Assembly (NCBI GenBank): GCA_018648265.1
Contig: JABGRN010000013.1
Coordinates: 1 to 64,000, forward strand
Length of the DNA: 64,000 nt
Reading direction: 5' to 3'
Source: Prolixibacteraceae bacterium
GTDB taxonomy: Bacteria > Bacteroidota > Bacteroidia > Bacteroidales > Prolixibacteraceae
The notes under the pieces were generated by a model. It had not been told where the DNA came from, ran no database searches, and worked only from the letters and a program-made list of their open reading frames with translations. How positions within the stretch are numbered: the stretch's first letter is position 1; the number at the start of each line of letters is the position of its first letter. Shown one piece after another: positions 3,391-19,842 of the stretch. The translations under genes were made by a program, and so were the position numbers.

Positions 3391-4584
3391 TTAATCTGAT
3401 ATTGTTTCTAGTGCTTGTTCCAAATCGTCAATCAAATCACCTGCATCTTCCAATCCAACTGAAATGCGCATATCTCCCAGGGAAATTCCAAGTCCATTAA
3501 ACTGTTCCGGGCTTAATTCTTTCAGATAACTAATTGCGGGAGCATAAACCAAACTTTCGTGGCCTCCCCAACTTACACCAATTTTAAAAATTTTGAGGCT
3601 GTTAAAGAATGTTTTGATTTGAGATAAATTCGATGTTTTTAGTTTGAATGCCATTAATCCGCTAAAACCTGTCATTTGTTTTTTTGCCAATTCGTGTTGA
3701 GGAAAACTTTTTAGACCTGGATAATTTACGGTTTCAATTTTCGGATGCGACTCTAAAAACTGCGCCACTTTAATTGCATTTTCCTGATGAGCTTTCATTC
3801 TAATGGGCAGTGTTCTCAGGCTTCGCATTAACAACCATGCATCTAATGGAGCAGTTTTCCCGCCGAGTAATTCAAATTCATTTACGCTAATGCTATCGAT
3901 GTCTTTTGCATTTCCAATTACCAGACCGGCAACTACGTCGGAATGTCCACCAATGTATTTTGAGCAGGAATGTATTTCCAAATCGACGCCCATTTTTAGT
4001 GGTTTTTGAAATATTGGCGATGCCCAGGTATTATCGATAATCGTTTTAATTTCTTTTGAACGAGCCAGTTTGCAGATGCTTTCGATATCCTGAATATTGA
4101 AAATTGCAGTGGAGGGGCTTTCAAGATAAAATAGTTTTGTGTTGGGACGAATGGCATTTTTATATTCATCCAAATCGTTACCAGAAACAAATGTGGTTTC
4201 AATTCCCATTTTCTTTTTCAGATAAACGGAAATGAGATTATTGGCTGGCCCGTAAATATTTTTTATGGCAATTGCGTGGTCACCTGCATCCAGAAAATGC
4301 ATAACTGCCGCTGTAATTGCCGCCATGCCCGATGCAAAAAGCCGTGCTTTTTCACCACCGGCAAGCTTTGCTAATTTCTTTTCTACAATATTAACCCCGG
4401 GATTTCTTCCCCGCGAATAAATACTGGTGTTTATTCTGTCGTCGAAAGCTGCATCAATGGCATCCCAGTCTTTAAATGTAAAAAGTGTATTTTGAAAGAT
4501 AGGTGGTACAACTGCACCTTCGTATTTCTCTCTCTCTTCCGCAAAATGAGAAATCATTGTTTCTGGTTTCAATTCCTTTTTCAT
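3391..4584 (-). CDS. Cys/Met metabolism PLP-dependent enzyme (gamma-synthase / methionine gamma-lyase type)
   Basis: 397 residues, full length for the trans-sulfuration family. Visible are the N-terminal substrate/cofactor segment with YSRGRNPGVNIVEKKLA, the cofactor loop FASGMAAITAAVMHFL, the PLP-contacting TIIDNTWASP, and the PLP lysine in SCSKYIGGHSDVVAG (Lys209). The family covers cystathionine gamma-synthase, cystathionine lyases, methionine gamma-lyase and O-acetylhomoserine sulfhydrylase; the sequence alone does not separate them. The enzyme is cytosolic and heads a two-gene unit with the Nudix hydrolase. Upstream lies a 209-bp inverted-repeat element, which may affect its promoter. 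Confidence 0.9.
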   Translation of the reverse strand: MKKELKPETMISHFAEEREKYEGAVVPPIFQNTLFTFKDWDAIDAAFDDRINTSIYSRGRNPGVNIVEKKLAKLAGGEKARLFASGMAAITAAVMHFLDAGDHAIAIKNIYGPANNLISVYLKKKMGIETTFVSGNDLDEYKNAIRPNTKLFYLESPSTAIFNIQDIESICKLARSKEIKTIIDNTWASPIFQKPLKMGVDLEIHSCSKYIGGHSDVVAGLVIGNAKDIDSISVNEFELLGGKTAPLDAWLLMRSLRTLPIRMKAHQENAIKVAQFLESHPKIETVNYPGLKSFPQHELAKKQMTGFSGLMAFKLKTSNLSQIKTFFNSLKIFKIGVSWGGHESLVYAPAISYLKELSPEQFNGLGISLGDMRISVGLEDAGDLIDDLEQALETISD

Positions 4585-6355: not shown

Positions 6356-8680
6356 CTATTTCAACTCTTTATTTGGTTCAGCACCCATTTTCAAAAATAA
6401 TTCGCCTCCCGATATAATTTCATTGTGATATAAAAACATTCGGTTCAAAGGTTGCCCGTTTAATTTAACCGACTGAATATACAGATTCTCTTTGCTATTA
6501 TTTTGGGCAACAATCCTAAACTGTTTTCCTGAATAATATTTGTTGTCAAGCGAAATTGTAATCTCATTAAAAATAGGACTGCCAATTTGGTATTTTGGAT
6601 TTTCAGCAGCACCGGCATCCAATTGAAACAAACCGATTTTCATTAATACAGAAAGCGATCCCATTAAACCCTGGTCTTCGTCGCCGTTAAAACCAACATA
6701 GGGAGAAACGCCCGTGTAAACAGAATCGATAACTTCGCGGCTCCATTTTTGTGTTAACCACGGCGCACCGACCGTATTAAAAATATATGCGGTTTGCATC
6801 GAGGGTTGGTTTCCGTAATTAATAGATATGTTTCTGATTCGCTTTCGGTTTTCATCTGAATGCGATTTTCCTGCGGTAAAACCTTGTAATTTTGCTTGTG
6901 CAAATTCATTGTTCAGTTTGCTCACGAGAGCTTCTTTTCCTCCCATTAATTCTGCCAGTCCGTCGTAATCGTGGGGAACAAACCAGGTCATTTGTGCAGC
7001 GTTCGATTCTACAAATCCATCGTTTTGATATTCGTATGGGTCGTATGGAACCCGCCAGTTTCCATCAATATCTTTTGGGCGAATAAACCCATAACTTTTA
7101 TCAAACAGGTTTTTCCAATTATTTGAGCGGCTTAAAAAGTATTCGTAATCATCGGTTTTATTTAAGGCCTTTGCCAATTGCGCCAGTGTCCAGTCCTGAA
7201 AAGAGTATTCCATTGTCATTCCCGCGCCATCTTTATGCATGCCTCTAATTCTGGGTTTGTAAGGGTGGGGGACGTACCCATTTTCAATGTAAGGCTCAAT
7301 TCCACCACCTTCCGATGTAGAATGTTCGTAACCCGACTTTGCCATAATTCCGCCCGGCATGTGGTTTTTCTTTAATCCTTCGTAAGCAAGGTTAATATTA
7401 AAATCGCGAATTCCTTTCATCCAGGTGCTAACAACAAATGGAGTTGACGACGCCCCAACCATAACATAGGTATAATTTCCGCCGGATGGGCCACGTGGAA
7501 TTAAACCACCGTCGTTGTAATAATTGAGCATTGAGTTACAAAAATCGGAGGCAACTTTTGGGTAGGCGAGTGGCCATAGCGTTGAAATAGTCCATTGTGC
7601 ACCCCACATCGCATCAAAATTATGATGATTAAATTTTGGCATCCCGTTTTTATCCAGTGGAATTTGTTTGACTTTTCGTTCTTCTCCAGTAAAATCGGAG
7701 TAAGTTCCACTTGCATCGCTAATAATTCGTCTTCCTTGCAAACCATGCCAAAGGTCGGTGTAAAAACGTACCCGGTCGGTTTTGTTTGCTCCTTTTACTT
7801 CTATTTTATTCAGCCAATTGTTCCACTCTTCTTTCGATTCAGAAACTATTCTATCAAAATCCCAGTGTGTTAATTCAGCTTTTATATTCTTTTTTGCCTG
7901 TTCTTCGTTGGAGTATGAAATACCAACTTTCATTAAAACGGGTTCATTTAAATTATCTTTTAAAACCAACAGTGCGCCCGAATTTATTCCCCTAACTCCC
8001 TTACTGTTTTCGCTTATTTTATCATCAGTCCAGGTAATCAATTCTTTTACCGGTTTATTTAATTCGATATGAAAAAACACAGGAGTTTCCTTTGGTCGGC
8101 GGCGTGTTGAAGCATTCATTACATACCCCGAAAATTCGCGGGAATTTATCTTTTTGATTTCACCTTTGCTTATTGCGCATGGCCCATTCGGCCCGCTTAA
8201 TTTTATTAAAATTGATTTCTGATTTTTATTTTTGAAGGTGTATTTATGAAATCCAACCCGTGTTGTTGAAGTTAATTCGGCTGTAATATTAAACCGGTCG
8301 AGTTCAACTTTATGATAGCCGGGAGCAACTATTTCCGTTTCATGAGAGAACGGTGAATAATAGTCATCTTTAATGTCTTTTACATCTCCATTTACCGGCA
8401 TTACCGAAAGGGCAGAGAGTTGCCAGGCATGTACATGACTGAATCCTTTTATTTCGTGGGTGTCGTAACGATAACCACTTCCCCAAGCGCCACCCACTTC
8501 ATTGTCGGGACTGAGGTTTACTAATCCGAAAGGCCGGCTTGCCGATGAGAAAAAGAACCAGCGCGAGTTGGCTGCATCCAAATGCGGGTAAACCAAATCG
8601 ACAGGTTTTTCTTGTGCATTGATTCCTAAGCTTGATAGAAGTATAATTGATGAAAGAAACAGAAATTTGAATTTTAGCAT
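6356..8680 (-). CDS. GH92-family alpha-mannosidase, exported
   Basis: About 774 residues from the Met at 8680, chosen because MLKFKFLFLSSIILLSSLGINAQ is a standard signal peptide; an upstream in-frame start at 8758 adds 26 unlikely residues. GH92 signatures are visible: the N-terminal beta domain with DLVYPHLDAANSRWFFFSSA and FSHVHAW, the (alpha/alpha)6 domain with WHGLQGRRIISD, FDAMWGAQWTISTLWPL and VESNAAQMTWFVPHD, and near the C terminus the catalytic-base segment VGFNGDEDQGLMGSLSVLM. GH92 enzymes are Ca2+-dependent inverting exo-alpha-mannosidases acting on N-glycan or yeast mannan linkages. Linked to nhaC by a 4-bp gap. No SusC/D pair is nearby. Confidence 0.9.
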   Translation of the reverse strand: MLKFKFLFLSSIILLSSLGINAQEKPVDLVYPHLDAANSRWFFFSSASRPFGLVNLSPDNEVGGAWGSGYRYDTHEIKGFSHVHAWQLSALSVMPVNGDVKDIKDDYYSPFSHETEIVAPGYHKVELDRFNITAELTSTTRVGFHKYTFKNKNQKSILIKLSGPNGPCAISKGEIKKINSREFSGYVMNASTRRRPKETPVFFHIELNKPVKELITWTDDKISENSKGVRGINSGALLVLKDNLNEPVLMKVGISYSNEEQAKKNIKAELTHWDFDRIVSESKEEWNNWLNKIEVKGANKTDRVRFYTDLWHGLQGRRIISDASGTYSDFTGEERKVKQIPLDKNGMPKFNHHNFDAMWGAQWTISTLWPLAYPKVASDFCNSMLNYYNDGGLIPRGPSGGNYTYVMVGASSTPFVVSTWMKGIRDFNINLAYEGLKKNHMPGGIMAKSGYEHSTSEGGGIEPYIENGYVPHPYKPRIRGMHKDGAGMTMEYSFQDWTLAQLAKALNKTDDYEYFLSRSNNWKNLFDKSYGFIRPKDIDGNWRVPYDPYEYQNDGFVESNAAQMTWFVPHDYDGLAELMGGKEALVSKLNNEFAQAKLQGFTAGKSHSDENRKRIRNISINYGNQPSMQTAYIFNTVGAPWLTQKWSREVIDSVYTGVSPYVGFNGDEDQGLMGSLSVLMKIGLFQLDAGAAENPKYQIGSPIFNEITISLDNKYYSGKQFRIVAQNNSKENLYIQSVKLNGQPLNRMFLYHNEIISGGELFLKMGAEPNKELK

Positions 8681-9253: not shown

Positions 9254-9706
9254 TTAGTCCCATACATAACGTTCATCGTATTCTATTTTATATTTATTTA
9301 AGAACGCCCTGAATTCTTTCTGGAAAGTTTTTGTCTTGTGATGCTCTTTTTGATTAACGATATAGTTAGTTACAATACCAATTTCTGAAGGATTTACCGA
9401 GAAAATTCCATATCCACTTTGCCAATAGAAATTGATATATTTCTTTCCTACGGTCTTTATCCATTTGGAGGATTCCTTTTTTAATTTTTCTAATAGCTTG
9501 GCTTGGGTAATTGTACGAGATAAGGTACAAAGAATATGAATATGATTTCTGTAACCACCAATTTGTATAGGATTGCAATCTAAACCTTTGCATATTCCTC
9601 CTAAATACTCGAATAATCTTTTTTCTATGTCTGTATCAATTATCATCTCTCTGTTTTTTGTGCTAAACGTGATGTGCGTATAAACTTTTGATAATGATTG
9701 CGGCAT
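9254..9706 (-). mobile_element. REP-associated tyrosine transposase (RAYT / IS200-like Y1 HUH transposase)
   Basis: 150 residues, normal length for single-domain Y1 transposases. The HUH metal-binding motif is NHIHIL (His55, His57) and the nucleophile lies in IVTNYIVNQKEHHK (Tyr115), with the conserved FYWQSGYGIFSV between. All catalytic residues are present, so the gene looks intact. Y1 enzymes nick and join single-stranded DNA at hairpins; RAYTs act on REP palindromes, and palindromes flank this gene on both sides (9166-9244 and 9741-9819). There is no tnpB/IscB partner. The element interrupts what looks like a tandem pair of zinc-finger genes. Confidence 0.92.
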
Positions 9707-15242: not shown

Positions 15243-16259
15243 TTATCCTTTCTTTTTGCTTTTTATCTCTTGTTCCAGCTTTTTTAATTCTTCCAAATCT
15301 TCTTTGTCAGCTTGCAGTACTTCGTATTCCTTTCTCCTTTTATCAAAATTTGTATAAATCTCACTTACTTGTTTTTCCATCTCTATTTTACTTATCGAAC
15401 CTGCGTTTGCTAATATTTTTTTGTCTTGAAAATCAATGATTCTATCAACATTTTCACGCCAAAAATTAATTGTTATATCCATTCGGTTTTTTGCTCTAAG
15501 CTCCGCACTTTCAAGAAAGATAACTACTAATCGGTTTAGTGTATCAATTTCATCGTGAGTGAGATAATTTTTAGCAATGTAAATATCTTGTTTCCTGACG
15601 ATTGAACCTTTCCAAACTGTTAGGTTCATATTTGGTTTCTCTGCATTAGCTCTTGAAACAATCAATTCGGCAGCAGTTTTTCCTGTTACTGCATAATGAA
15701 GTTTATTTTGCGCCTCGGCAAAGAACATTTGAGTTGATTTATCATCTGGCTCATAATCACTACTAAGCGCAAACAAATCTTTTATTTTTTGATAAAAACG
15801 TTTTTCCGATGCACGAATATCTCGTATCTGTTCCAATAATTCATCGAAATAATCAGGTCTGCCATCAGGATTTTTCAGACGTTCGTTATCCATTACAAAC
15901 CCTTTTACCATATATTCTTTCAGGTTTTTATTTGCCCAAATCCTGAACTGTGTACCTCGTTTACTACGAACCCGAAAACCGATTGCCAAAATCATATCGA
16001 GCGAGTAAAAAGTAACATCGTACTTTTTACCATCATCGGCAGTTGTAAAGTAATTCTTTACAACTGAATCGTCCTCTAATTCCCCCTCTTCCAGTATGTT
16101 AGATATGTGTTGCCCAATGTTTTGTTTTGAGGTGGCAAAAAGTTCGGCAAGTTGATTTTGATTCATCCAAATATTGCCGTCTTTTGCATATAACGCCACC
16201 GATGCTCTACCATCGGCAGTTTTATAAATGATTATATTTTGTTGGTTATTGTTATCCAT
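15243..16259 (-). CDS. rhuM: RhuM-family protein (virulence RhuM-like, restriction-linked)
   Basis: 338 residues, the usual RhuM length. The N-terminal domain has the family phrase WMNQNQLAELFATSKQNIGQ, the H..I..IL..GEL segment and VTFYSLDMILAIGFRVRSK, RGTQFRIWAN; the middle has KLHYAVTGKTAAELI and AKNYLTHDEIDTLNRLV; the C-terminal 60 residues are a charged coiled coil. RhuM proteins contain a Bro-N-like/KilA-type DNA-binding lead and occur beside restriction systems, but their biochemistry is unsettled. If the upstream restriction gene is read in its expected 3' frame, it stops 2 bp before this ATG, which points to translational coupling. Confidence 0.88.
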   Translation of the reverse strand: MDNNNQQNIIIYKTADGRASVALYAKDGNIWMNQNQLAELFATSKQNIGQHISNILEEGELEDDSVVKNYFTTADDGKKYDVTFYSLDMILAIGFRVRSKRGTQFRIWANKNLKEYMVKGFVMDNERLKNPDGRPDYFDELLEQIRDIRASEKRFYQKIKDLFALSSDYEPDDKSTQMFFAEAQNKLHYAVTGKTAAELIVSRANAEKPNMNLTVWKGSIVRKQDIYIAKNYLTHDEIDTLNRLVVIFLESAELRAKNRMDITINFWRENVDRIIDFQDKKILANAGSISKIEMEKQVSEIYTNFDKRRKEYEVLQADKEDLEELKKLEQEIKSKKKG

Positions 16260-16302: not shown

Positions 16303-19300
16303 TTAAATCGTAAAGTTGATAAACCATTTTGTCGATTTCTTTGTTGGTTGCTGAAATGGTTTGTTGTATTTGGTTGATTTCGGTTTTGTATGCATTAAAA
16401 TATATTCTTCCCACTCGTCTTGTTGAACAAGCGATAGTTTTAATTTTTGCTTTTTAAGCTCGGCAACAAAGATTTTAAAATCATAATCGTAGAACTCTTC
16501 GAGTTTGGTGCTGATTTTTTCTATCTCTAAATTGCTTATTATACGGTTGATAAAGCGTGCGGCTTTCTCTTGTAACTCTTTATTGTATGAAAGCATTTGG
16601 TCTGCTTTCACAATGAATGGTGATTGTTCAATATTTAACGGAACAGGAATTCTATTTGTTATTGGACTATCAAAGTGAATTGTTCTAATTGCCTTTGCTA
16701 TGATAAATCTATAAGAATACCAATTGATTAGTTTTGAATTAAATAATAAACAAAAAACTTTTGCATTATACTTTTCGTTAAATGTAATCTGATTAATTGT
16801 ATCAACGATTACAAAATCTCTCTTTTCGGGAATACAAGCTGTGATTTTTATATGGTCAACAGGGTTTTCAATGTGAGCGACTATATTTTGAGTTAATACA
16901 GAGTTGTCGTTAATTAAACATTTTTCATTAGATTCAATAATTGATTTATCAATATAACCTTTAACTCCTTTAATACCTTCTCGTTGTATTTCTGCACCGC
17001 CTAATACTTTAGTATCCCCATTATTAGAAATGTGTTTCTGAAATAATCCGCCGCGAGAATTGGTAGCTATATCTTTTATGAAAAATTTGCTTTTATTTAT
17101 GTTTTTTGCAATTTTCAGTTCTTGCTCTGAAATACCATTTAAGTAGAATCCAAATTCATTGAAAGTTTCTTTTTCAATAATACCTAATTCTAAAATATGA
17201 TTATCCTTTAATATACCTGAAACATAATTTCTTGAATTTACTCTCTTTGAAAAGAAAAACATAATTTGTTCTAATTTGACTTCTTTCCAAACTTTCTTGC
17301 AATCAATAATTTTGTTAATGTCATCAAGAATAAATTCTCTAATTGTTTGGTAATTTGAAGCAAAAGAAAAAGACTTAGGAATAATATAACCAAAACTACC
17401 ATTGTCTTTCAATAAATCTGAATATGATAATTTTATAAATGATATTGCTGTTTCAGCACCGCCTTTAATATATTTATTATTCAAATAATCTTGAGTTTTT
17501 TTATCAAGTTTAGCTCCATACGGAGGATTTCCAAGAACGACATCAAAACCACCATCATACTCGGTTCGTAGGGCATGTTCCAGTGTGCATAGGAATTCTT
17601 TTTTTAGCTTTTCTATTTCGGGATTTTCGGGCAATTCGTGCTTGGTGCGGTTAGTACGAATATATTCTATCGCATTCGCCAAATAGTCGCCAGATTTCAC
17701 TTCGCTTTTTCCGAACTTCTGCGTCCATAGAGCGTGCTGCGTTTCGCCACGAGAGCTGGAGGGGGAAGCAGTATCGTAGCCGGTATCGGTATCGGACAAC
17801 AAGGGGGCATGCCTCCTTGTTGTTGGTGGCGTAGCCGCCGCCGTAGTATCCGTAGCCGCCACTTTCGTTGTAGTAGAATACCCCCGTTCTCGGTTTCGGT
17901 TTTTCGCAGTTACCGATTTTATTTTTCCTACTATTGCCGTTAGTTCGTCCGCTTCGCATACGAGTAGCAGGTGCAAATGGTCGCCACAGAGGTTATATTC
18001 GAGTACATTTAGCCCGTCTTCTTTTACTATATCGGCAACGGTTTGCGTTATTATTTGTTCGTCTTCTTCGTCTATCCATTCGGGTTTGTCGGTAGTTATG
18101 TGGCAATCGAACATCCTTTGTGAGTAACGCGAGTTATGCGTTGCTGTGGTAATATGCCATATTTTCTTTTCTTTCTTTCGGAAAATTTGCGGAAATTCAT
18201 TTTGCCAATTAAATGCTTTTTCGCCCGCTACTTCGGGATCGTCAATTAGCGAGTTTCCGCATTTAATGTTATTATTCAGGTTCGAAAGTTTTCGCCCTTT
18301 TTGTGTTGTGCGCAACCACAACGAAAGTTTGGCAATTTCAACACTTTCATCGTTAATATCTACACCATAAAGGTTTTTCTCTAAAATGGTTTTGTCGGTA
18401 TCGAACAAACGGAGTTTTTCGCCTGTCAGTTCGGCAATAATATCGTCGATTTGTTGGTGTTCGATAATTAAAAAGTTGAGTGCCTGGTTCAGAAAAGCTC
18501 CCGAACCACAAGCCGGGTCAACAATTTTTAAATTAAACAACCAATCTTTGTACGCTTGCAGCGTTTCAAACAGCTTTTTCCCTTTTGCGGATACTTTCCC
18601 ATTTTTATTAATAATCGATTCGTCAAACTCAATTTCACGAATGCCAAATTTCTCACGCTTTTCGGTACATAGTTTTCCAATGGTATTTTCAACAATGTAT
18701 TGCGTAATGTATTTTGGTGTGTAAAAAACACCGTCTTTTTTGCGTTTTGTTTTGTTTTTATCGGTTGCCTTGCCTTCTATTTCGGCTGTAATTTCTTCAA
18801 TTTCGTTTAACGAATGTTCAAAAATATGCCCCAATATATTTACGTCAACTTCGGTGCTGTAATCGTATGACGAAAGCAAAAGAGCATCATTTTGCAACAC
18901 ATCATCGTCAATTATAATATTATCGAGAATTTCATCGGAGGCGAACAATCCACCATTATAAGCAGGCAAATTGTAAGTTTTGTATTTGTGCCCTTTGTCG
19001 AGATGAATGAAGAATTTGACAAATCGGCTGTAAAGTGAGAAATACTCATCGTTGTCGATAAAAAGTTGCCATTGTTCAACAATTTTCGAAATGGCGTTTG
19101 GCGGAACCAAACCTGTGTCTTCTGCAAAAAACACAAATAATAATCGGTCGAGAAATTTCTGCGATTTTTTGAAAAGTGTGAGTTTGTCGTATTGCGGATT
19201 GTTTTTTACAAGGTTGTTGTAAATTTTGTATTTGAACGAAGAATAATCTTTGTACAATTTGTCTGAAATGTTTTCCTCGTGAAATTTGGTTTCGGTTTTT

Positions 19301-19842
19301 AGTTTTAGCGGCAAGTCTGTAAAAATGCTGTCTTTTTGCAACAACAAATACAAAAGTTGAAAATCGTTTTTTTGCAAGTTGAACAAATCAAACTCCTCGT
19401 ATTCATTGGAATAGTCGATGTAAAAACGCAATTTTTGAAAATTTGATGTAATCACATATTTACATTCGGGCTGATTGTTTTTATAATTAAATGCTTGTTG
19501 AGTAACGTTTGTTAGTTCTTTTGTTTTTGTCGATTTTAGCTCGATTACAGCAATGGCTTTGTCGTTTTTCAAAATTGCACCATCGGCTTTTTTGCCATCG
19601 GTTTGATTTTTAAATTCTCGTGCAAGATTGTGATTGTCATCTGGTTTTAAAGTATATCCTAATATATCTACAAAAATATCCCGAAGAAATCCGTCTTGAT
19701 ATTCTTCCTCTTTCATTTTCTGAATCTCAGCGATTTTAGAAAAAGAGTAATTTTCATTGAATTTTTCAAATACTTTATCAACTTTCTCGCTATCGAGTTG
19801 CAATAAATGATTATTTATAACAGATTTTTGGAAAATACTCAT
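16303..19842 (-). CDS. Type IIG restriction endonuclease-methyltransferase with embedded Y1-transposase-like domain
   Basis: 1179 residues. N-terminal PD-(D/E)xK nuclease (Asp87, Glu101-x-Lys103 in AVIELKST), helical connector, gamma-type N6-adenine MTase with motif I DPACGSG (442-448) and motif IV NPPYG (772-776), then a target-recognition domain. Between FPQIF (550-554) and GGFDVVLG (764 on) sit about 209 extra residues with an HUH motif (DHLHLLL, His622/His624) and EYIRTNRTKH (Tyr727), i.e. an IS200/RAYT-like Y1 domain, with a low-complexity Thr/Ala/Ser stretch at about 650-700. The last 28 or so residues appear to be read in the wrong frame: shifting at a TATAT run near 16400 restores KEIDKMVYQLYDLTDDEIAI, the normal family C terminus, with a stop at 16262. 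Confidence 0.87.
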   Translation of the reverse strand: MSIFQKSVINNHLLQLDSEKVDKVFEKFNENYSFSKIAEIQKMKEEEYQDGFLRDIFVDILGYTLKPDDNHNLAREFKNQTDGKKADGAILKNDKAIAVIELKSTKTKELTNVTQQAFNYKNNQPECKYVITSNFQKLRFYIDYSNEYEEFDLFNLQKNDFQLLYLLLQKDSIFTDLPLKLKTETKFHEENISDKLYKDYSSFKYKIYNNLVKNNPQYDKLTLFKKSQKFLDRLLFVFFAEDTGLVPPNAISKIVEQWQLFIDNDEYFSLYSRFVKFFIHLDKGHKYKTYNLPAYNGGLFASDEILDNIIIDDDVLQNDALLLSSYDYSTEVDVNILGHIFEHSLNEIEEITAEIEGKATDKNKTKRKKDGVFYTPKYITQYIVENTIGKLCTEKREKFGIREIEFDESIINKNGKVSAKGKKLFETLQAYKDWLFNLKIVDPACGSGAFLNQALNFLIIEHQQIDDIIAELTGEKLRLFDTDKTILEKNLYGVDINDESVEIAKLSLWLRTTQKGRKLSNLNNNIKCGNSLIDDPEVAGEKAFNWQNEFPQIFRKKEKKIWHITTATHNSRYSQRMFDCHITTDKPEWIDEEDEQIITQTVADIVKEDGLNVLEYNLCGDHLHLLLVCEADELTAIVGKIKSVTAKNRNRERGYSTTTKVAATDTTAAATPPTTRRHAPLLSDTDTGYDTASPSSSRGETQHALWTQKFGKSEVKSGDYLANAIEYIRTNRTKHELPENPEIEKLKKEFLCTLEHALRTEYDGGFDVVLGNPPYGAKLDKKTQDYLNNKYIKGGAETAISFIKLSYSDLLKDNGSFGYIIPKSFSFASNYQTIREFILDDINKIIDCKKVWKEVKLEQIMFFFSKRVNSRNYVSGILKDNHILELGIIEKETFNEFGFYLNGISEQELKIAKNINKSKFFIKDIATNSRGGLFQKHISNNGDTKVLGGAEIQREGIKGVKGYIDKSIIESNEKCLINDNSVLTQNIVAHIENPVDHIKITACIPEKRDFVIVDTINQITFNEKYNAKVFCLLFNSKLINWYSYRFIIAKAIRTIHFDSPITNRIPVPLNIEQSPFIVKADQMLSYNKELQEKAARFINRIISNLEIEKISTKLEEFYDYDFKIFVAELKKQKLKLSLVQQDEWEEYILMHTKPKSTKYNKPFQQPTKKSTKWFINFTI
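17554..18180 (-). mobile_element. In-frame HUH/Y1 transposase-like domain inside the restriction-methylase
   Basis: Residues about 555-763 of the type IIG protein. Order: KKIWHITTATHNSR (the first strand of Y1 enzymes), YNLCGDHLHLLLVCEADEL (HUH, His622/624), KIKSVTAKNRNRERG (alpha helix), a compositionally biased insert encoding Thr/Ala/Ser/Pro with a REP-like palindrome, then HALWTQKFGKSEVKSGDYLA and IEYIRTNRTKH (Tyr727). The HUH-to-Tyr distance is about 103 residues, against 58 in the stand-alone RAYT at 9254; the difference equals the low-complexity stretch. All catalytic residues look intact. Base composition is visibly richer in GC than the flanking methylase. Confidence 0.85.
17796..17823. 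repeat. REP-like palindrome within coding sequence
   Basis: A 28-bp near-perfect palindrome, ACAACAAGGGGGCATGCC followed by TCCTTGTTGT, with one mismatched pair. It is translated on the minus strand as part of TTRRHAPL in the Y1-like domain. Such GGGGGCATGCC hairpins are typical targets of REP-associated transposases. Confidence 0.7.

Follow-up and report, generated by a model that had tools for sequence, protein, structure and literature searches.

RAYTs are mostly low-copy, 'domesticated' transposases, and how they persist is an open question. Inteins and homing endonucleases present another pattern, in which a nuclease-bearing selfish insert lies beside the most conserved motif of its host enzyme and is present or absent among close relatives. 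Among described RAYT/TnpAREP proteins, subclass 2.4 is abundant in Bacteroidetes and contains in-frame palindromes within its own gene, in the region from HuH to Y, which varies in length and sequence; the same survey excluded a few proteins of unexpected length, regarding them as fused genes or as errors of annotation (Quentin et al. 2018, PMC6006769). In vitro, TnpAREP cleaves and recombines single-stranded REPs (PMC8266576). REPs in coding genes and the Rickettsia palindromic elements can lie in frame within proteins, sometimes twice per gene, and many such intragenic palindromes fall in replication and repair genes (PMC3733652). The target-recognition parts of restriction enzymes are themselves mobile, moving by recombination between two positions and between loci, a process termed DOMO (PMC3077401). 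Statements on these four papers, here and below, extend only to the portions of their text that were available. In a search limited to a collection of open-access papers, with subscription papers, preprints and REBASE outside the scope, no account was found of a restriction enzyme that contains a RAYT or Y1 domain; a sequence-only reading of the DNA studied here, which had inferred such an architecture, likewise knew of no description but did not rule one out.

The window, by which we mean the whole 64,000-nucleotide stretch analysed from a Prolixibacteraceae bacterium, encodes a protein of 1179 amino acids in a single frame (Table 1), and the in-frame architecture of a transposase domain within a restriction enzyme is in itself nearly certain. 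As the sequence-only reading had it, the frame is open throughout, and methylase motif I (DPACGSG, 442-448) and motif IV (NPPY) are both in place. PADLOC assigned the protein to REase_MTase_IIG with an E-value of 9e-214 (best stretch, residues 1-556), and Pfam matched N6_Mtase at residues 439-536, MmeI_Mtase at 426-551 and Eco57I with a best stretch at 722-848. Residues K85, D87, E101 and K103, which we take to form a PD-(D/E)xK-like motif, are invariant across nine aligned fusions, and HSDR_N_2 (Pfam) scored narrowly below its cut-off. The TaqI_C profile (Pfam) matched the target half below cut-off, and the target part of the assignment rests on this match and on position. The protein thus combines nuclease and N6-adenine methylase motifs with a target part in a single chain, which is, as far as sequence can tell, the makeup of a type IIG enzyme; its restriction activity is inferred. 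Two of the three fusions in this genome are immediately followed by a RhuM-family gene (window 15243-16259, minus strand; L006 4675-5706, minus strand), and the one in the window is defence candidate PDC-S05 in PADLOC.

Table 1. Features of the fused gene in the window, and pairs of loci compared in the text.
Feature	Position	Strand	Basis
Restriction-methylase gene of type IIG carrying the RAYT insert in frame (1179 aa)	16303-19842	-	open frame and profile matches
PD-(D/E)xK-like nuclease residues (presumed motif), K85-A-D87 ... E101-L-K103	19534-19590	-	alignment and HSDR_N_2
Methylase motif I, DPACGSG, residues 442-448	18499-18519	-	sequence, alignment
RAYT/Y1 (HUH) insert, about residues 555-763	17554-18180	-	Pfam, NCBIfam, AlphaFold2, Foldseek, slot comparison
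HUH motif, H622-L-H624	17971-17979	-	H at both places in 44/44 inserts
Variable low-complexity linker from HUH to Tyr, about residues 655-700	17743-17880	-	pLDDT <50
Palindrome ACAAGGGGGCATGCCTCCTTGT (plus strand), in frame as RRHAPL	17799-17820	.	pattern search
Candidate catalytic Tyr727	17662-17664	-	Y in 43/44 inserts
Methylase motif IV, NPPY, residues 772-775	17518-17529	-	sequence, alignment
Target-recognition half, about residues 790-1090	16573-17475	-	comparison with L207; block replaced between close relatives
Pairs with the insert more alike: L096/L067, L081/L083, L007/L097, L027/L023, L095/L096			

The segment that the sequence-only reading had delimited at 17554-18180 as a HUH/Y1 domain coincides with residues 555-763, of which about 557-763 make up the Y1/HUH domain. 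Y1_Tnp (Pfam) matched it with 30.4 bits against a cut-off of 23 over residues 585-652, between the N6_Mtase and Eco57I stretches. The best NCBIfam model of the insert was REP_Tyr_transpos (34.2 bits, residues 586-741), which did not reach its equivalog cut-off of 80, and the REP-associated profile (NF047646, 2e-8) ranked ahead of one for IS200 (NF033573, 1.5e-5), both below cut-off. AlphaFold2 modelled the window insert with a mean pLDDT of 73, with values of at least 90 in 87 of 234 residues and below 50 in the linker, and models of nine inserts have a confident core and a disordered linker at 114-158. In Foldseek comparisons with the PDB, the best 30 matches were all Y1 transposases (probability 0.99-1.00), including E. 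coli TnpAREP 4er8, with modest E-values (4.5e-4 to 2e-2) and low query TM-scores (0.27-0.40); a sequence-only PDB search gave eight weak matches, all named transposases, with a best E-value of 0.0054. Structure prediction had been proposed for the fusion in the sequence-only reading; the model of the insert matches Y1/HUH folds, and that of the full-length protein was too poor (pLDDT 57, pTM 0.38) to show how the domain packs on the methylase. The residues that this reading had named as catalytic, His622, His624 and Tyr727, recur throughout, and the tyrosine is missing only from L026, where the frame breaks in the linker ahead of it. With an HUH motif, a tyrosine on a following helix and a matching predicted fold, the insert fulfils what is expected of the Y1 (HUH) superfamily, and its sequence matches place it with the REP-associated (RAYT/TnpAREP) type; cleavage of hairpins is inferred. 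No intein splicing domain (Hint) was matched in Pfam or NCBIfam up to an E-value of 1. Ratios of dN/dS for the insert were 0.06-0.24 in 14 of 14 pairs, higher than in the upstream part in nine of the ten pairs computable for both, and by this measure the insert is under purifying selection.

As with inteins and homing endonucleases, an insert of selfish type lies by a conserved motif and is patchily distributed among close relatives. Unlike an intein, it has no splicing domain and stays in the protein, and it is a HUH transposase, for which homing has not been shown, rather than a homing nuclease. With subclass 2.4, as far as the accessible text describes it, the insert shares a REP-type HUH/Y1 domain, a palindrome of its own between HuH and Y and a variable linker, but the present domain is fused inside a restriction-methylase (PMC6006769). 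Its motifs also differ: DHxH occurs in 44 of 44 inserts where subclass 2.4 has NH[IFV]H, and YIxxNRxKH replaces YIxNNP, with N731 in 43 and R732 in 42 of 44 inserts at the places of N and P, such that the inserts do not show the full set of key motifs of that subclass (NH[IFV]H, WQ and YIxNNP). Compared with the elements covered by the available part of PMC3733652, the present palindromes concentrate in the transposase-encoding gene itself and in other restriction genes, and compared with DOMO (PMC3077401, same limitation), it is the transposase domain that occupies, leaves or changes in one slot.

To compare enzymes with and without the insert, as the sequence-only reading had suggested, 85 methylase relatives in fetched stretches were sorted into 41 with the insert, 41 without and three undecided (contig ends, one frame break). 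This is not a random sample, as insert genes came from insert searches, the others were the best methylase matches, and L141 was fetched for its palindrome. Between FxWxxEF and GNPP, genes with the insert hold 178-374 residues (n = 41), whereas 31 of the 41 without it hold exactly 13, for example FNWQNEFPEIFKNGGFDVVIGNPPY, in agreement with the earlier statement that homologues run straight from motif to motif. The slot is 65-86 residues long in nine further insert-free genes and 34 in one. By eye, a coiled-coil-like segment of 76-86 residues fills it in L210, L223, L229-L232, L237 and L238, and in L227 and L239 it is occupied by 65 and 34 residues that look unrelated.

The window genome has three fusions, with frames of 1182, 1269 and 1268 codons and the insert at the identical place in each. 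Their inserts are only 51-62% alike, and the IS200/IS605 criterion of near-identical copies within one genome is therefore unmet. A further fusion lies in G036, a single-contig genome of the genus; because of these four occurrences the fusion is more than chance. A chance match or a pseudogene was rejected on the three copies, the profile score, the single-contig genome, the open frames and the conserved HUH and tyrosine. Within the genus, six of 37 genomes matched the insert profile, every one in a fusion frame, of which one is truncated at the end of its contig. The profile was also found in 31 of 295 genomes of the order (by manual count, 22 as fusions, including two that lie at contig ends, and nine only as short frames or fragments) and in seven of 395 genomes of a phylum sample (six as fusions), each count including the window's own genome. 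A pattern search of named records returned relatives at no fewer than nine loci in Draconibacterium, Lutibacter, Polaribacter and other Bacteroidota, and phyla beyond Bacteroidota were covered only by this search. Plasmids and phages gave no tblastn match, and none of 600 pattern matches in viral contigs was confirmed; on these results a phage or plasmid as the vehicle was rejected. The window genome also has two ordinary stand-alone Y1 genes (window 9254-9706, minus strand; L001 1393-1896, minus strand), whose proteins both carry YI[EV]NQKEHH and have no close kinship to the insert; the accessible text of PMC6006769 gives Y---Q--HH as the signature of subclass 1.2. At L080 (5976-6734) a stand-alone RAYT ORF begins with MSLFQES, resembling the first residues of restriction genes.

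To follow the history of the insert, a tree of 84 genes was computed from the sequence that precedes it, with L073 excluded (cut short) and the three undecided genes counted as insert genes. The insert label needs 22 state changes on this tree, at least 18 of them forced by starred branches, compared with 28.4 on average for shuffled labels (4 of 500 shuffles needed as few as 22); as the shuffles mostly need more, some clustering of insert genes is indicated. An AU test on a quick tree with one very long branch (L104) rejected a single clade of insert genes (p 2e-48), and single gain with vertical descent alone was rejected on this test and on the 22 changes. The nearest relative of the window gene, L207 from the same genus, is 91% identical before the slot and has no insert; its target half is 35% identical overall (19-33% in individual alignment windows), with one alignment window at 83% behind the target half. 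In five pairs (Table 1), similarity reaches 80-87% in the insert, compared with 62-77% in the upstream part and 26-36% in the target half. Conversely, the four insert-bearing pairs that are alike on both flanks (upstream 82-91%, target 70-90%) are only 42-57% alike in the insert, and inserts of different subtypes replace each other in otherwise alike enzymes. Because inserts can thus be far more alike, or far less, than their host genes, the module moves between enzymes. The pair L102/L103, with 100% similarity immediately upstream and 98% within the insert, counts against exchange; it is absent from the both-flanks test because the L103 frame is cut short in the target half.

Synonymous divergence agrees with exchange in some pairs only. 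For four of the 13 pairs with both values, dS is 0.44-0.62 in the insert versus 1.73, 2.86 or saturated upstream; in the remaining nine the two are closer, and two of these nine, L069/L081 and L094/L095, have an insert that is no younger. These pairs were hand-chosen, and saturation makes the high dS values rough. Over 741 pairs, insert similarity correlates weakly with upstream similarity (rho 0.12) and not appreciably with that of the target half (rho 0.02), the latter value excluding an insert that travels together with the target half. Overall, the comparisons show repeated gain, loss and exchange of the module, independent of either flank. The stand-alone RAYT ORFs at L084 and L105, which carry repeated palindromes, have a remnant of motif IV downstream behind a stop, which implies that such modules also exit restriction genes; both adjoin DHFR-like coding sequence, with a thymidylate-synthase-like sequence upstream of L084 (by eye, from translations).

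The insert also contains palindromic DNA. In the window, the palindrome (ACAAGGAGGCATGCCCCCTTGT on the coding strand) lies inside the linker and is the only match at up to 3 mismatches, against 0.15 expected. The 22-base pattern (at most 2 mismatches) occurs at only four places in the window genome, three of them inside two fused genes, and a large REP family in this genome was dismissed on that count. Short tandem repeats of GATACC/GGTATC lie beside the palindrome (window 17743-17880; L006 about 7560-7640), widening the linker and adding further palindromic DNA. The family element can be written AACAAGGGG-N6-CCCCTTGTC, with a self-complementary centre and a length of 24 bases or 8 codons, and two of the three phases are used, giving TRGHVPLS in 35 and NKGINPLV in 19 of 54 copies (at most 1 change). 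Copies occur in the linker between HUH and Tyr, behind the tyrosine, ahead of the methylase, in the nuclease loop and close to the C terminus; 24 of 41 genes have one (at most 1 change) within the insert, some behind the tyrosine. GT[AG]G, the foot of described REPs in the available literature, is lacking: it was seen within 10 bases of 1/54 copies, versus 3/54 random 10-mers from the same genes, and recognition, if any, must therefore differ from that of described RAYTs.

These REP-like palindromes meet the expectation of an association with the insert, as judged by their occurrence. Allowing 2 changes, they occur in frame in 33 of 41 insert genes (77 copies) and are absent from eight, compared with three of 41 insert-free genes (8 copies). 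Counting only copies outside the insert, the figures are 20/41 and 3/41 (Fisher 5e-5, a test that ignores kinship), or 10 genes and 1 with exact arms; the rest of the same stretches, 532 kb, has 8 copies, 4 with exact arms. Of the tree-matched pairs (17 on average, L141 excluded), 6.6 have the palindrome on the side of the insert, 0.4 have it on the opposite side and 10 show no difference, with a median p of 0.03 (range 0.002-0.375). The three insert-free genes with copies are L141 and L236 (G446) and L219 (G527), both of whose genomes have fusions; the centre is that of a fused gene in G446, but not in G527, whose two fused genes have no palindrome.

Copies within a gene tend to share their centre. 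This holds for 27 of 40 within-gene pairs (0/5000 permutations), and for 23 of 35 such pairs, in 16 genes, once copies less than 40 codons apart are dropped. For pairs of copies from different genes the figures are 54 of 368 when both sit at the same site and 96 of 1023 when the sites differ. With one vote per gene and without L086 and L141, centre sharing was 0.60 versus 0.11 when shuffled (0/3000). The arms are exact in 41 copies, have one uncompensated change in 14 and two changes in 36; 32 of these 36 are compensated by a complementary pair. As the 32 fall into only 17 sequence types, they cannot be treated as independent, and an appearance of compensation could also arise when template switching repairs a palindrome. 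Fusion-bearing genomes have 47 exact copies whose centre is near-self-complementary, and 37 of these lie inside restriction genes (manual tally; of the ten others, one in G056 was left unexamined).

Our preferred reading, which we consider probable, is that the RAYT-type transposase, its active site intact, persists with its palindromes in type IIG restriction-methylases as a module that stays in frame, does not splice and can be exchanged. Its one permissive slot lies just before methylase motif IV, and domain and palindromes together would make up a REPtron-like unit nested in the restriction gene. Translated as part of the enzyme, the domain would use its HUH/Tyr site to recognise hairpins of the approximately 24-bp palindrome on single-stranded DNA and to nick and rejoin them, with the result that copies spread preferentially into its own gene and sometimes into other restriction genes. 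The module itself might move by copying into empty slots, aided by conserved coding DNA on both sides; its cost would be low because slot and linkers are loops, and it would gain persistence from a mobile, hard-to-lose host gene. None of these activities, nor any cost or benefit, nor restriction by the fused enzymes, has biochemistry behind it. The palindromes behave as mobile copies of one hairpin per gene that follow the domain, of which the simplest cause would be the embedded RAYT acting on them; we propose this on the strength of the activity of TnpAREP on single-stranded REPs in vitro (PMC8266576, available portion). That they favour restriction genes may stem from cis action of the domain, from exchange among such genes or from loops being tolerant, and the three were not separated. 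A further step, to a homing HUH transposase that is never spliced, keeps to one conserved slot, seeds its own palindromes and has the restriction gene as its vehicle, is possible but tentative.

The data do not tell apart a module that moves through chemistry of its own from one carried by general recombination between restriction genes. The slot may be a hot joint of homologous recombination between restriction genes, in which a RAYT landed long ago and has moved only thereby, with palindromes arising through slippage, gene conversion, template switching or other enzymes. Among pairs at least 85% alike upstream, target halves are alike in just 3 of 42 insert-free pairs, as against 2 of 66 insert pairs; since the target half is exchanged as freely without the insert, ordinary recombination could move the module unaided. 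Ten of the 41 insert-free genes have other segments of 34-86 residues in the slot, of which eight look like coiled coils by eye. Judged from the borders of four pairs, exchanged blocks seem to take in about 20 bp of conserved flank and to stop inside it, a pattern compatible with recombination and with homing alike. A mere passenger is nonetheless unlikely in view of the intact HUH and tyrosine, the purifying selection on the insert and the palindromes that follow it. The same rampant swapping in insert-free genes leaves the insert unsupported as a driver of target exchange, and we think it highly improbable that transposase and palindromes flanking the target half promote its exchange to alter recognition. 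For such a role it can be said that the module sits at the edge of the swapped block, that palindromes also occur behind the target half, and that upstream and target similarity are less correlated in insert genes (rho 0.008) than in those without (rho 0.197; a difference matched in 22/1000 label shuffles, a post hoc test); the window gene, however, has no palindrome behind its target half.

A domain that adds single-strand nicking or hairpin binding to a defence enzyme, for instance against single-stranded or replicating foreign DNA, would be expected to keep its active site and to be under purifying selection, as the insert does. RhuM-like ORFs (a PADLOC defence candidate) accompany 8 of 44 insert or undecided stretches compared with 2 of 41 without, the insert stretches being mostly longer, and in the order 22 of 26 matches to a related stand-alone protein lie in fusion-sized frames. 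Yet close relatives lack the insert or have another segment in the slot, and inserts of other subtypes interchange in otherwise alike enzymes, and such an accessory function seems to us quite unlikely. Of the two alternatives offered by the sequence-only reading, the selfish element that spares its host gene is accordingly favoured, because the module is gained, lost and exchanged independently of its flanks and palindromes lie in the same genes; the domesticated nicking domain is not, with a role in defence neither shown nor excluded. The REP-associated kind of the domain, the palindrome in its linker and its recurrence are points beyond that reading. Many of the genomes are fragmented assemblies, but three copies in one genome, the fusion in single-contig G036 and dozens of open frames leave virtually no room for an assembly chimera or annotation accident.

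As a RAYT class persisting inside a defence enzyme, the fusions amount to a natural experiment, since among many close pairs the module is present, missing or exchanged. They make testable whether RAYTs move palindromes and themselves, and whether restriction genes shelter other mobile elements. For annotation, such proteins can be dismissed as fusions or errors, and restriction enzymes of Bacteroidota differ in length, and perhaps in how they behave, because of the module. Were the homing reading true, a defence gene would in effect also be a mobile element.

Palindromes were also followed beyond the fused genes. Their copy number per genome is low, which counts against the nested module that we prefer, as do the four exact copies in G025 and ten in G456, where no fusion was found, and four exact copies in G689, which lie in signalling genes (TPR or propeller-SpoIIE). 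G456 has just a degenerate stand-alone relative, and its loci L150 and L151 are arrays of three palindromes at 42-base spacing with short frames only. In G689 (L138, L139 and L140) the palindrome is in frame in large proteins ending in SpoIIE domains, and in the three proteins scanned it lies between the TPR or propeller repeats and the SpoIIE part. In genomes with a fusion, L142 and L145 carry it in frame in other restriction families (DUF7149-type Eco57I; type ISP). At L102 (about 4455-4502), a long palindrome with 15 more paired bases on each side lies just downstream of the fused gene and is perhaps a terminator.
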